From Mesobacillus jeotgali (lineage in GTDB: Bacteria; Bacillota; Bacilli; Bacillales; Cytobacillaceae): a stretch of DNA of 64,000 nt. Positions within the stretch are counted from its first letter, which is position 1. Every line of letters begins with the position of its first letter. This document shows, piece by piece, positions 27,466 through 30,832 of this stretch. The notes under the pieces were generated by a model. The model saw nothing but the letters and a program-made list of their open reading frames with translations, had not been told where the DNA came from and searched no databases. The position numbers and the translations under genes are program-made. Location: positions 1 to 64,000 of the forward strand of contig NZ_FVZC01000006.1 of NCBI RefSeq assembly GCF_900166585.1, read 5' to 3'.

Positions 27466-27493
27466 TTGTCTTGGGCTCCATTTGTTGTATAGT
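27466..27493 (+). promoter_or_regulatory. Promoter of the marR gene
   Basis: TTGTCT (27466-27471), 16-base spacer, TATAGT (27488-27493), about 32 bases before the start codon. None of the TGTCAA-N5-TTGACA palindromes found downstream is present here, so marR does not seem to repress itself through that site. Confidence 0.6.
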
Positions 27494-27524
27494 ATGGAGT
27501 AGAAAAGGGATTGAGGTGAGTCCA

Positions 27525-27965
27525 TTGAGTTTAAACTCTGAATTACAAGATTTAGACCTGGTTGATCTATTAAGTGAGCGTCACACTCTGCTGCGTAAAA
27601 TTTCAGAGAAAGCCTGGAATAATCAGAGTGATATTTATATTTCAAATTCAGAATGGTATATCATGGCGAGGATTTATAAAAAAAAGCCAACCATTTCATA
27701 TATTAATAAAAATGTGGAAATTTCCCGGCAGGCTATACATAAATTCATTAAAAACCTGGCTGAAAAAGGCTTAGTCGAAATCAATAACCTGGAAAATAAT
27801 AAAAAGGAAAAGTGGATACAGTTAACACCTCTTGGGGAAGAGTGCTATGAAAAAAACGCAAAGCTCAAGGCTAATCTGGAAATCAGGATTGCAGAGAAAA
27901 TCGGTGATGAGCAGGTAAAATTACTTAAGGAAATTTTAAAGCTTGATTGGAATCTGAATGATTAA
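27525..27965 (+). CDS. MarR-family transcriptional regulator
   Basis: Winged-helix regulator of 146 residues that likely dimerises and binds a palindrome until released by a ligand. The winged helix spans about 40-110: SNSEWYIMARIYKKKPTISYINKNVEISRQAIHKFIKNLAEKGLVEIN is the helix-turn-helix, NLENNKKEKWIQLTPLGEE the wing. I chose the TTG at 27525, five bases after GAGGTGA; no ATG gives a family-like N-terminus. Next to it is a second-type gyrB, and palindromes fitting a MarR dimer occur at the gyrB and carD promoters. A ligand such as a gyrase inhibitor is inferred from context only. Confidence 0.88.
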   Translation: MSLNSELQDLDLVDLLSERHTLLRKISEKAWNNQSDIYISNSEWYIMARIYKKKPTISYINKNVEISRQAIHKFIKNLAEKGLVEINNLENNKKEKWIQLTPLGEECYEKNAKLKANLEIRIAEKIGDEQVKLLKEILKLDWNLND

Positions 27966-27970
27966 GTCAT

Positions 27971-28012
27971 AACCCTCTTAATGTCAATTAGGTTGACAAT
28001 AAGAGGGTTTTT
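27971..28012 (+). terminator. marR terminator containing operator 1
   Basis: AACCCTCTTA and TAAGAGGGTT form a 10-bp stem followed by TTTTAT. Its inner part is itself the palindrome TGTCAA (27982-27987), TTAGG, TTGACA (27993-27998), so the hairpin continues almost to the loop. The same DNA can thus work as an RNA terminator for marR and as a protein-binding operator for gyrB. Confidence 0.8.
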
Positions 28013-28045
28013 ATATAAACTAATATTGTCAACTATATTGACAAT
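27993..28045 (+). promoter_or_regulatory. Promoter/operator region of the gyrB paralogue
   Basis: Operator 2 at 28025-28045 is a perfect palindrome ATTGTCAA-CTATA-TTGACAAT. Operator 1 (27982-27998) shares the half-sites and the 5-base gap. The TTGACA of operator 1 can act as -35 with TAAACT (28016-28021, 17-base spacer) or TATAAA (28014-28019, 15) as -10, so the operators would flank the -10 and cover -35 and +1. The -10 choice is uncertain; the palindromes are not. Confidence 0.7.
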
Positions 28046-28096
28046 TCTAGCTGTTATGCACCGTAAAGATGGGAGCGCGAAGGGGATTATACTGAA

Positions 28097-30019
28097 ATGA
28101 CACAGGCAGGAGTTCAAGGGCAAGCATATGATGCAAATCAAATTCAGGTTTTGGAGGGACTCGAAGCGGTCCGGAAGCGTCCGGGGATGTACATTGGTTC
28201 TACTTCAGAAAAGGGCCTCCATCACCTTGTTTGGGAAATTGTCGACAATAGTGTTGATGAAGCACTTGCAGGATATTGCAATGAAATAAACGTCGTGATA
28301 GAACAAGACAATAGCATAACTGTTATGGATAATGGCCGGGGAATTCCGGTCGGGATACATGAAAAAGAAGGAAGACCCGCGGTTGAGGTCATTTTGACAG
28401 TGCTCCATGCCGGAGGGAAGTTTGGCGGCGGAGGTTATAAAGTGTCTGGCGGGCTGCATGGCGTGGGTGCTTCAGTCGTGAATGCCTTATCTTCCTTATT
28501 GGAGGTATATGTACAGCGGGAAGGAAAAATCCATTACCAGAGTTTTGTCCGCGGTGTCCCTCAAGGGGAGTTGAACATCGTTGGGGAAACAGACCATACT
28601 GGTACGACTATTCACTTCGTGCCTGATGGCGAAATTTTTACAGAAACGCTTGAGTATAATTATGAAATTCTCTCATCAAGGCTTCGTGAACTGGCATTCC
28701 TGAACAAAGGGATTACGATCACCATTACTGACAAGCGCAGTGAAGAGAGGAAGAATGAATATTACTATGAGGGCGGAATAATGTCCTATGTCGAGCACTT
28801 AAACGATCATCAAACCGTACTTCATGAAGAACCGATATTCATAGAAGGGGAGCATAAAGGAATAACACTGGAAATCGCTCTCCAATATAATGAAGGATAT
28901 GCTGAGACGCTCTACTCTTTTGCTAACAATATTCATACACATGAAGGCGGGACTCACGAGGCAGGATTTAAGACAGCATTAACCAGAACGATTAATGAGT
29001 ATGCAAGGAAAACTGGACAGATTAAAGAAAATGAAGCCAACTGTTCGGGAGAAGATGTCAGAGAAGGCCTTACAGCCGTTATTTCGGTTAAGCATCCAGA
29101 TCCTCAATTCGAGGGGCAAACCAAAACGAAGCTAGGCAACTCGGAAGTAAAACCTGCAACAGATGCGATTCTTTCTGAAAGACTCGAGTTATTTTTACTC
29201 GAAAATCCTGCGGTAGCCAAAAAAATCATGGATAAATGTTCTGTGGCCTCCAAAGCCCGGATTGCTGCCAGGCGGGCACGTGAACTGACGAGAAGGAAAA
29301 GTGTTTTGGAAATATCAACTCTTCCGGGCAAACTTGCTGATTGTACATCAAAAGATCCATCCATTAGTGAACTGTATATTGTAGAAGGGAATTCTGCCGG
29401 CGGCTCGGCAAAGGGGGGACGTGACCGCCATTTCCAGGCGGTCTTGCCGCTTAGAGGTAAAATCCTAAACGTCGAGAAAGCGGGAATGGATCGTATTTTT
29501 CAGAATGCCGAGATAGGAACGATGATCAAGGCCATTGGCGGGGGAGTCGGAGAGAATTTTGATGCAGCAAAAGCACGCTATCACAAAATTGTTATCATGA
29601 CCGACGCAGATGTGGACGGTGCCCATATCCGTATACTTATGCTGACATTTTTCTATCGATTCATGAGACCGTTACTAGAACACGGCTATATCTATATCGC
29701 ACAGCCTCCGTTGTATAAAATCCAGCAAGGTAAAAACATACAGTATGCTTACAATGACCTGGAACTGGAAAATACTTTGGCGTCACTGCCAGTAAGCACG
29801 AAACCGAATTTACAGCGGTATAAGGGTCTTGGTGAAATGAACCCGGAACAATTATGGGAAACGACCATGAATCCGGAAACAAGGACATTGCTTCAGGTAG
29901 CATTGGATGATGCCAGAGAAGCGGATGAGGTTTGTGACTTATTGATGGGAGACAGGGTTGAACCCCGCCGCCAATTTATTGAGGATAATGCTGTGTATGT
30001 CAGGAACCTGGATGTCTGA
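28097..30019 (+). CDS. gyrB: DNA gyrase subunit B paralogue, predicted drug-resistant
   Basis: ATPase subunit of gyrase, 640 residues, full length and co-linear with B. subtilis GyrB. The GHKL ATP site is intact (Glu47, Asn51 in [31 protein letters not shown]), as is the TOPRIM site (YIVEG, Glu430; [10 protein letters not shown] with Asp503, 505, 507). Two known drug positions differ: KIHRQ, whose Arg binds aminocoumarins (E. coli Arg136), is KIHYQ (Tyr147); EGDSAGG (E. coli Asp426, where Asn gives quinolone resistance) is EGNSAGG (Asn432). VEKAR is VEKAG. It is not beside recF or gyrA, so the housekeeping gyrB is presumably elsewhere. MarR-linked operators precede it. Function as an inducible resistant subunit is inferred. 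Confidence 0.92.
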
Positions 30020-30044
30020 CCTTCCTAAAGAATATGTAAAATAG

Positions 30045-30084
30045 AATGGCCCATTGAATCCTGATTCAATAAGGCCATTTTTAT
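30045..30084 (+). terminator. Terminator of the gyrB paralogue
   Basis: AATGGCCCATTGAA pairs with TTCAATAAGGCCATT with a small bulge, followed by TTTATTTTTA. Confidence 0.8.
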
Positions 30085-30213
30085 TTTTATCTAATAGTTA
30101 TTTTGACTTTGTATCAACGTGTCCGGAAGACTTATGAACTGGATAGGAGAGATAATTTCGTAAAAAAAGCAGCAGCTGTTTTAACTTTTGTGAAAGTCTG
30201 CACAAAAACTTTC

Positions 30214-30735
30214 CTAATTAACCACTTTCTCCTTATTGCTATCTAATAAGTACTTTGTAATTCTTTCTTCTATTCTGTCAACGGAGGTATTAAAAGCAAT
30301 CGCTAATTCTTTAAAGAGGATGCTTTGAATGGTATTAAGCAGCTTTCGGTCCTGTTCATAAAGTTTTTTTTCATTCTGATCTGCTTCAATCTTTTTTCGC
30401 ATGAGTGTATTGATGGTCCGGGCAATTTCCATTCTGTCACCACGGTTTACAATACCGGAATATAAATTTTGCCGAACGTTCGGTTTATCAACCCAGTCGA
30501 TTCCTGGATATTTAAAAGAATCAAGGATTTCCTGGGCATCCTCTTTATGGACCATTTCATGAAGGCTTACCTTATCACTATGAACTGGAACACTCAAGGT
30601 CAACTGATGATTGTTATCAGTAGGGTGCAATACGTAATACGGTCTTGTTACACCTAACACGGTCTTTTCGCAAATATCATCAATTTTACAGATGCCATGT
30701 GCTGAATAAATAACCAAATCTCCTATATTAAACAT
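30214..30735 (-). CDS. CarD/CdnL-family RNA polymerase-binding regulator
   Basis: 173 residues. The N-terminal Tudor-like RNAP-interaction domain is clear (MFNIGDLVIYSAHGICKIDDI...YYVLHP...LSVPVHS, about 1-65). The rest is helical (about 75-165), as in CarD and CdnL, which bind the RNAP beta lobe and stabilise the open promoter complex. The ATG at 30735 lies after GAGGGGTG; an earlier in-frame start at 30762 would run through the operator. It faces the gyrB paralogue tail to tail, but its promoter carries the same palindromes, so I infer co-regulation by the MarR protein. The C-terminal half is not close to any family member I recall in detail. Confidence 0.85.
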   Translation of the reverse strand: MFNIGDLVIYSAHGICKIDDICEKTVLGVTRPYYVLHPTDNNHQLTLSVPVHSDKVSLHEMVHKEDAQEILDSFKYPGIDWVDKPNVRQNLYSGIVNRGDRMEIARTINTLMRKKIEADQNEKKLYEQDRKLLNTIQSILFKELAIAFNTSVDRIEERITKYLLDSNKEKVVN

Positions 30736-30754
30736 ATATTCACCCCTCGGTAAA

Positions 30755-30832
30755 ATTGTCAACCAAGTTTATGATAACACTAAAGAGCAACTTTGTCAAC
30801 TTGGTTGACTTTAAGGTGAGTGGCTCTGTCAA
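30755..30832 (-). promoter_or_regulatory. carD promoter with flanking operators
   Basis: On the minus strand TTGACA (30799-30794), 17-base spacer, TATCAT (30776-30771): a near-consensus promoter. The -35 is the half-site of a palindrome TGTCAA-CTTGG-TTGACT (30794-30810). A second, imperfect copy ATTGTCAA-CCAAG-TTTATGAT lies just after the -10 (30755-30775). A lone half-site TGTCAA occurs at 30827-30832. The half-site and 5-base gap equal those before gyrB. Confidence 0.75.

Follow-up and report, generated by a model that had tools for sequence, protein, structure and literature searches.

Second, drug-insensitive target genes are already known, among them the novobiocin-resistant gyrB of Streptomyces and the mupirocin-resistant ileS2, and loci in which MarR controls an exporter are likewise a known kind. 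We describe a locus at positions 27,466 to 30,832 of a 64,000-nucleotide stretch of Mesobacillus jeotgali DNA (contig NZ_FVZC01000006.1, positions 1 to 64,000; hereafter the window) that shares features with both: a marR-like gene, a second gyrB (gyrB2) and a gene for a CarD/CdnL-like protein (carD2), with the same palindrome in front of gyrB2 and carD2. The combination of MarR, CarD and gyrase may be new: no description of it was found in open-licence PMC papers, nor did their full text yield a comparable extra gyrB.

Like the Streptomyces gyrB and ileS2, gyrB2 is an intact extra copy of an essential target that carries a resistance-type residue and accompanies a sensitive housekeeping copy. 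In contrast to these, its changes lie at the pocket of the cleavage complex rather than at the presumed aminocoumarin contacts, and it is linked to MarR and CarD genes. With MarR-exporter loci the system has in common the MarR-like gene, palindromes over the promoter and an exporter of the major facilitator superfamily in 27 of 55 related loci; it differs in that a CarD-type factor is the most constant partner (44/55) and that some loci hold gyrB in the exporter's place. An LmrB-like exporter and an LmrA/YxaF-like TetR gene at some loci recall the flavonoid regulon (lmrAB) of Bacillus subtilis, although the regulator here is MarR-like and the TetR gene is present in only 5/55 loci.

A second GyrB beside MarR- and CarD-type genes

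The marR gene, full-length gyrB and tail-to-tail carD that an earlier note had read from this DNA were all confirmed. The marR-like gene (27516..27965, plus strand; start GTG 27516 or TTG 27525) encodes a MarR-type winged helix of the repressor kind: the product passes the HTH_27 profile (27.2 vs. a cut-off of 22.2), falls below that of MarR_2 (21.5 vs. 27), and has MarR-family proteins as its best, if weak, structural relatives. Through MarR similarity we collected 55 related loci, as a rule 12 kb each. Carriage by plasmids or phages was dropped as a possibility, since the MarR of this locus gave 0 matches in the plasmid collection and 0 in the phage collection at 1e-5.

The gyrB2 gene (28097..30019, plus strand) encodes 640 amino acids with ATPase, transducer, Toprim and C-terminal parts (four Pfam domains) that align end to end with Escherichia coli GyrB, except for the E. 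coli insert. The protein is a GyrB rather than a ParE, scoring 1018.8 against TIGR01059 (cut-off 882.4) and remaining below the cut-off of parE_Gpos (855.4 vs. 899.95). Its other relatives in the host genome (G000; 4.63 Mb, 9 contigs) are the housekeeping gyrB (75% identical), which is placed after dnaN and recF (frames judged by size and position), and ParE (58%).

Asn432 of GyrB2 aligns with D426 of E. coli GyrB. In our comparison this column holds Asn in 7/7 GyrB2 rows (six distinct sequences, those of L031 and G005 being identical), and Asp in 11/11 host-type GyrB and 11/11 ParE. In E. coli, D426N is reported to have been selected on nalidixic acid (PMC6830822), and it is listed as one of the two commonest quinolone changes in GyrB (PMC7730664). 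For Neisseria gonorrhoeae, D429N, K450T and S467N are reported to raise the minimum inhibitory concentration of zoliflodacin; D429, K450 and S467 are equated with D437, R458 and N475 of Staphylococcus aureus, where N476 and E477 also contact the drug (PMC9865888). With Asn at D426, GyrB2 carries a residue change of a known resistance type. In S. aureus numbering (counted from D437), Asn takes the place of D437 and either Ala or Gly that of N476, while R458, N475 and E477 are kept. The 11 GyrB share 448 invariant positions, of which 29 are changed in all seven GyrB2; these 29 include 8 of the 21 GyrB-invariant positions at 463-487 (p = 1.3e-5, for a region picked after viewing the list), and the wider region 430-490 is also enriched (p = 0.004). 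GyrB2 is under strong purifying selection, with dN/dS of 0.03 and 0.05 for two pairs and saturation in the third, while housekeeping pairs give 0.03.

The earlier note had proposed a resistant GyrB within an inducible response to gyrase inhibitors, with novobiocin among the candidate drugs. Asn at D426 fits resistance, but novobiocin is unsupported, because the residues at E. coli D73, R136 and T165, which we take to be the aminocoumarin contacts, are unchanged in GyrB2 (Asp, Arg and Thr).

The carD2 gene (30214..30735, minus strand), tail to tail with gyrB2, encodes a predicted RNA-polymerase-binding protein with a CarD fold, composed of a RID domain and a helical C-terminal domain (both above the Pfam cut-off). 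In CarD proteins, helix 3 begins with a Trp that wedges into the edge of the transcription bubble and is present in over 95% of sequences. CarD2 differs from the CarD/CdnL of Thermus and Mycobacterium in the column aligned with this residue, in its palindrome upstream and in sequence (24% identity to Thermus CarD): none of 43 CarD2 sequences has Trp in the wedge column (85), and an invariant Trp81 stands four residues earlier, just ahead of a predicted helix at 85-98. CarD2 is the only stand-alone CarD found in the host genome, the second RID-domain match being a frame of 1203 residues that is taken as Mfd from its size. Across 21 genomes of the host genus, the 4 with CarD2 have no intact CdnL (the copy in G012 has a stop), and CdnL is present in 11 of the other 17. 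CarD2 as a general stand-in for ordinary CdnL was rejected, as 4/5 gyrB2 hosts in a scan of 50 genomes hold both.

A shared putative operator at carD2 and cargo promoters

Palindromes were searched with two patterns, TGTCAA-N5-TTGACA and the cross-species form TGTCAAY-N3-RTTGACA. Perfect copies of the first occur only twice in the 4.63-Mb host genome, both before gyrB2 (at 27982 and 28027). The count within the window alone is not striking (8 sites with up to 2 mismatches vs. a shuffle mean of 4.0; 6/100 shuffles reach 8), and sites with up to one mismatch mean little by themselves, because the host genome holds 26 of them vs. 17 for the reversed control. The sole pair of one-mismatch sites read (contig C9, 372129 and 372330) was set down to chance, both sites being inside an antiporter-like coding frame.

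Across species, the distribution of the palindrome is far beyond chance. Allowing one mismatch within 300 bp upstream, it precedes 39/42 carD2, 41/55 marR, 5/5 gyrB2 and 18/27 exporter genes (counts for carD2, marR and exporters overlap where these share an intergenic region), as compared to 4/390 other genes of at least 150 amino acids, 2 of those 4 being TetR genes that adjoin carD2. The palindrome at both promoters, for which the earlier note had suggested a search in relatives, is present; the note's view that the marR promoter is free of the palindrome holds in this genome and fails as a general rule. When host genomes were scanned for exact sites (50 of the 55), 45 were recovered in 34 genomes, vs. 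8 for the reversed control. The marR locus accounts for 38 of these sites; the remaining 7 are about at control level, given the 8 of the control. In Sporosarcina sp. ACRSM (L171), whose marR stretch is without carD2 and without an exporter, a perfect palindrome occurs away from the marR locus, 197 bp upstream of a gene for a DHA2/LmrB-like exporter; we count this telling case in favor of the explanation proposed below. In two Neobacillus species (L168:3959 and L170:4043) a perfect palindrome off the marR locus lies upstream of a related gene of ~142-150 amino acids.

The placement of the palindromes in the promoters fits repressor sites. In the common layout, the right arm of the distal palindrome, TTGACA, forms a -35-like box, followed 17-18 bp on by a -10-like hexamer; many promoters have another palindrome that covers the predicted start, and 15/24 site pairs less than 120 bp apart are spaced 45-46 bp. 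For gyrB2, the putative distal operator (27982..27998) is perfect and provides the -35-like box (27993-27998); a predicted -10, TAAACT (28016..28021, plus strand), lies 17 bp past it, and the putative proximal operator (28027..28043, perfect; 21-bp form 28025-28045) is 45 bp from the distal one. A terminator-like hairpin of marR (27971..28009, plus strand; -21.8 kcal/mol, z -5.6, folded for the window copy only) encloses the distal palindrome as its inner part. This nesting is found in the window, L031, L059, L075 and L082, where the hairpin's outer arm and T-run make up the -35/-10 spacer of gyrB2. In L063, gyrB2 is in the opposite orientation and has its own operators, without the marR hairpin. 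The putative carD2 operator (30794..30810, 1 mismatch) contributes a -35-like TTGACA on the minus strand (30794-30799), with a predicted -10, TATCAT, at 30771..30776 (minus strand). Two palindromes per promoter, as claimed earlier, are thus found at gyrB2 and not at carD2, which has a single good site; the other (30757..30773), over the expected start, is degraded (3 mismatches).

A constant core with exchangeable cargo

The constant core across relatives is marR, carD and the palindrome, and gyrB2 is an exchangeable cargo. Whereas carD2 or a piece of it is present in 44/55 marR loci, a complete gyrB2 occurs in 5/55 (L031, L059, L063, L075 and L082), and the commoner cargo is a DHA2 exporter of the LmrB-like kind (27/55, by protein clustering). 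This does not agree with the proposal of gyrB as a fixed third part. Profile searches with one member of the exporter cluster and the Sporosarcina gene gave LmrB as the best match, below the LmrB cut-off and above that of DHA2. Other gene families in these loci include Usp (11) and LmrA/YxaF-like TetR (5), and gene neighbors vary between genera. No exporter was found in the stretch of the 5 gyrB2 loci vs. 27 of the 50 others (Fisher p = 0.05, uncorrected for kinship). In one locus (L052:6583-8663), a gyrB2 remnant behind operators is followed by genes for gas-vesicle proteins.

Linkage of the three genes was then followed from the gyrB side. A codon-pattern scan identified gyrB of the D-to-N type in 10/193 genomes of the family, representing 4/25 genera (G000, G005, G006, G463, G479, G530, G476, G481, G525 and G531). 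The marR-gyrB-carD neighborhood anticipated by the earlier note is present in all: marR, carD2 and palindromes reside beside gyrB2 in 10/10, in more than one gene order. Some of the marR loci belong to the same genomes (L059 to G476, L082 to G481, L063 to G525, L075 to G531 and L031 to G005); L036, which is filed as Chryseobacterium sp. ISL-80 and is of the Bacillaceae by content, is from G012 and matches it in marR.

In the marR tree, gyrB2 loci are scattered among exporter loci, with 6 changes of cargo, at least 4 of them forced by well-supported branches (the L052 remnant counted), while GyrB2 is recovered as a single clade (support 100/100). The simplest reading of these trees is an exchange of cargo between related chassis.

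The leaders of many exporter genes have a feature of their own, a conserved GGRGGTGT block behind the palindrome, in 13/27 clustered exporters and in L171 (L032:7144-7263, L034:7125-7244, L040:7117-7236, L066:6507-6626, L171:4426-4545, and others). It was considered as an RNA element and rejected: exporter leaders from 9 loci matched no Rfam family above threshold, and no consensus base pair was found for the block.

Origin of gyrB2

The GyrB2 clade nests within a genus of another family (g70), with support of 98/90 in the full tree and 96/84 without columns 420-500, and this nesting argues for transfer. Approximately unbiased (AU) tests keep a clade of GyrB2 with host-family GyrB (p = 0.18 for the full alignment, 0.21 masked) and also a g70 clade that excludes GyrB2 (p = 0.18, masked). 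The full tree joins GyrB2 as sister group to those g70 genes that bear Asn (87/75) and the masked tree does not, the grouping being kept with p = 0.44. An origin of GyrB2 in g70 is thus favored by the trees, not proven. Duplication of the host gyrB is disfavored as the source by the 75% identity and the placement inside g70, with the above AU values for the host-family clade standing on its side.

The Asn pattern was matched in 11 of 397 genomes of the order, namely in G000, in G006 and in nine more. From these nine, eight genes were fetched (L130-L134 and L137 in g70; L135, from G376; L136, from G095), and each is a housekeeping gene that follows dnaN and recF. Within g70, Asn is present in 7 of 12 genomes, and Asp in four of the remaining five, the four examined. 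The housekeeping Asn in g70 possibly reflects a natural tolerance of gyrase poisons in this genus.

A proposed inducible response and its alternatives

We propose, with a probability of about one half, that the locus is a MarR-repressed, poison-inducible response that supplies a poison-tolerant GyrB. MarR bound to the TGTCAAY-N3-RTTGACA palindromes, with their right arm as the -35 box and often a second copy over the start, would silence carD2 and the cargo until an inducer, probably a gyrase poison, freed it from these sites. The cargo here would be gyrB2, with Asn at D426 and the changes nearby, and gyrase built with GyrB2 would tolerate the poison; in many relatives the LmrB-like exporter would take the part of cargo. 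CarD2 would bind RNA polymerase and may aid promoter opening during stress, a step between CarD and supercoiling that we consider plausible. Several observations weigh against this proposal. The gyrB2 gene was lost in G012, cut down in L052 and split across two frames in G006, so that it is not always needed; other quinolone and zoliflodacin positions (K/R447, S464/N475) are the same as in host GyrB; no palindrome is near 9/27 exporters and 14/55 marR genes; and 9/397 genomes of the order have Asn in a housekeeping GyrB without the MarR unit.

A broader version sees a modular response, in which a chassis of MarR and an inducible CarD paralog keeps promoters opening as supercoiling falls, an exporter and a tolerant gyrase subunit taken from the housekeeping gyrB of another genus replace each other as cargo, and plant or microbial poisons such as flavonoids may act as inducers. 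In this full form it appears rather unlikely, the AU tests, which keep a host-side origin as well as a foreign one, having lowered the estimate. In B. subtilis, YxaF (QdoR) responds to quercetin, and an LmrA/YxaF-like TetR gene is behind the palindrome in L035 and in the gyrB2 locus L075. Inhibition of gyrase and induction of DNA cleavage are reported for quercetin (PMC8481877). By analogy, flavonoids could be the natural inducer class, although we treat this as a lead only.

That GyrB2 is instead a stress-specific isoform is a doubtful alternative. Such a subunit would set a different supercoiling level without any drug resistance, while MarR would sense some general signal, aromatic or redox, and promoters would be retuned by CarD2. 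Its co-regulation with a transcription factor through shared operators and the strong purifying selection both suit this idea, and Asn426 might itself alter gyrase activity, as may be judged from the growth costs reported for gyrase resistance changes (PMC6830822). However, a drug-type exporter is the cargo of the same chassis in 27/55 loci, and the changes of GyrB2 cluster beside the poison pocket. The identity of the regulator is a separate matter. Another protein might bind the palindromes, with marR merely adjoining them: the marR promoter of this genome has no palindrome, and the pattern includes the -35 consensus. We nevertheless think it improbable that marR is a bystander, as the marR locus holds 38/45 exact sites in 50 host genomes, leaving 7 that approximate the 8 of the reversed control, and marR is the sole gene common to all 55 loci, though these were found via marR.

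Second gyrB genes that protect against ATPase-site inhibitors exist, and with this precedent GyrB2 might guard against compounds such as novobiocin; four positions within residues 1-225 are changed in all GyrB2 (53, 91, 133 and 204). The unchanged residues at the presumed contacts D73, R136 and T165 make this very unlikely. Target copies are also commonly placed within biosynthesis clusters, and gyrB2 might accordingly be the self-resistance gene of an adjacent cluster for a gyrase inhibitor. We give this little credence: the neighbors scanned encode a methylthioribose kinase, a mechanosensitive channel and a class II aldolase (no search for biosynthesis genes was made in the rest of the window), and neighbors differ between genera.

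Implications

If MarR indeed controls an inducible, poison-tolerant GyrB, environmental bacilli would have at hand a gyrase subunit that they can induce and that bears the very residue change arising against quinolones and zoliflodacin. We know of no description of a CarD-type transcription factor within a drug response. Such a factor would here join one, and with this locus one could test directly if factors that open promoters offset lost supercoiling.

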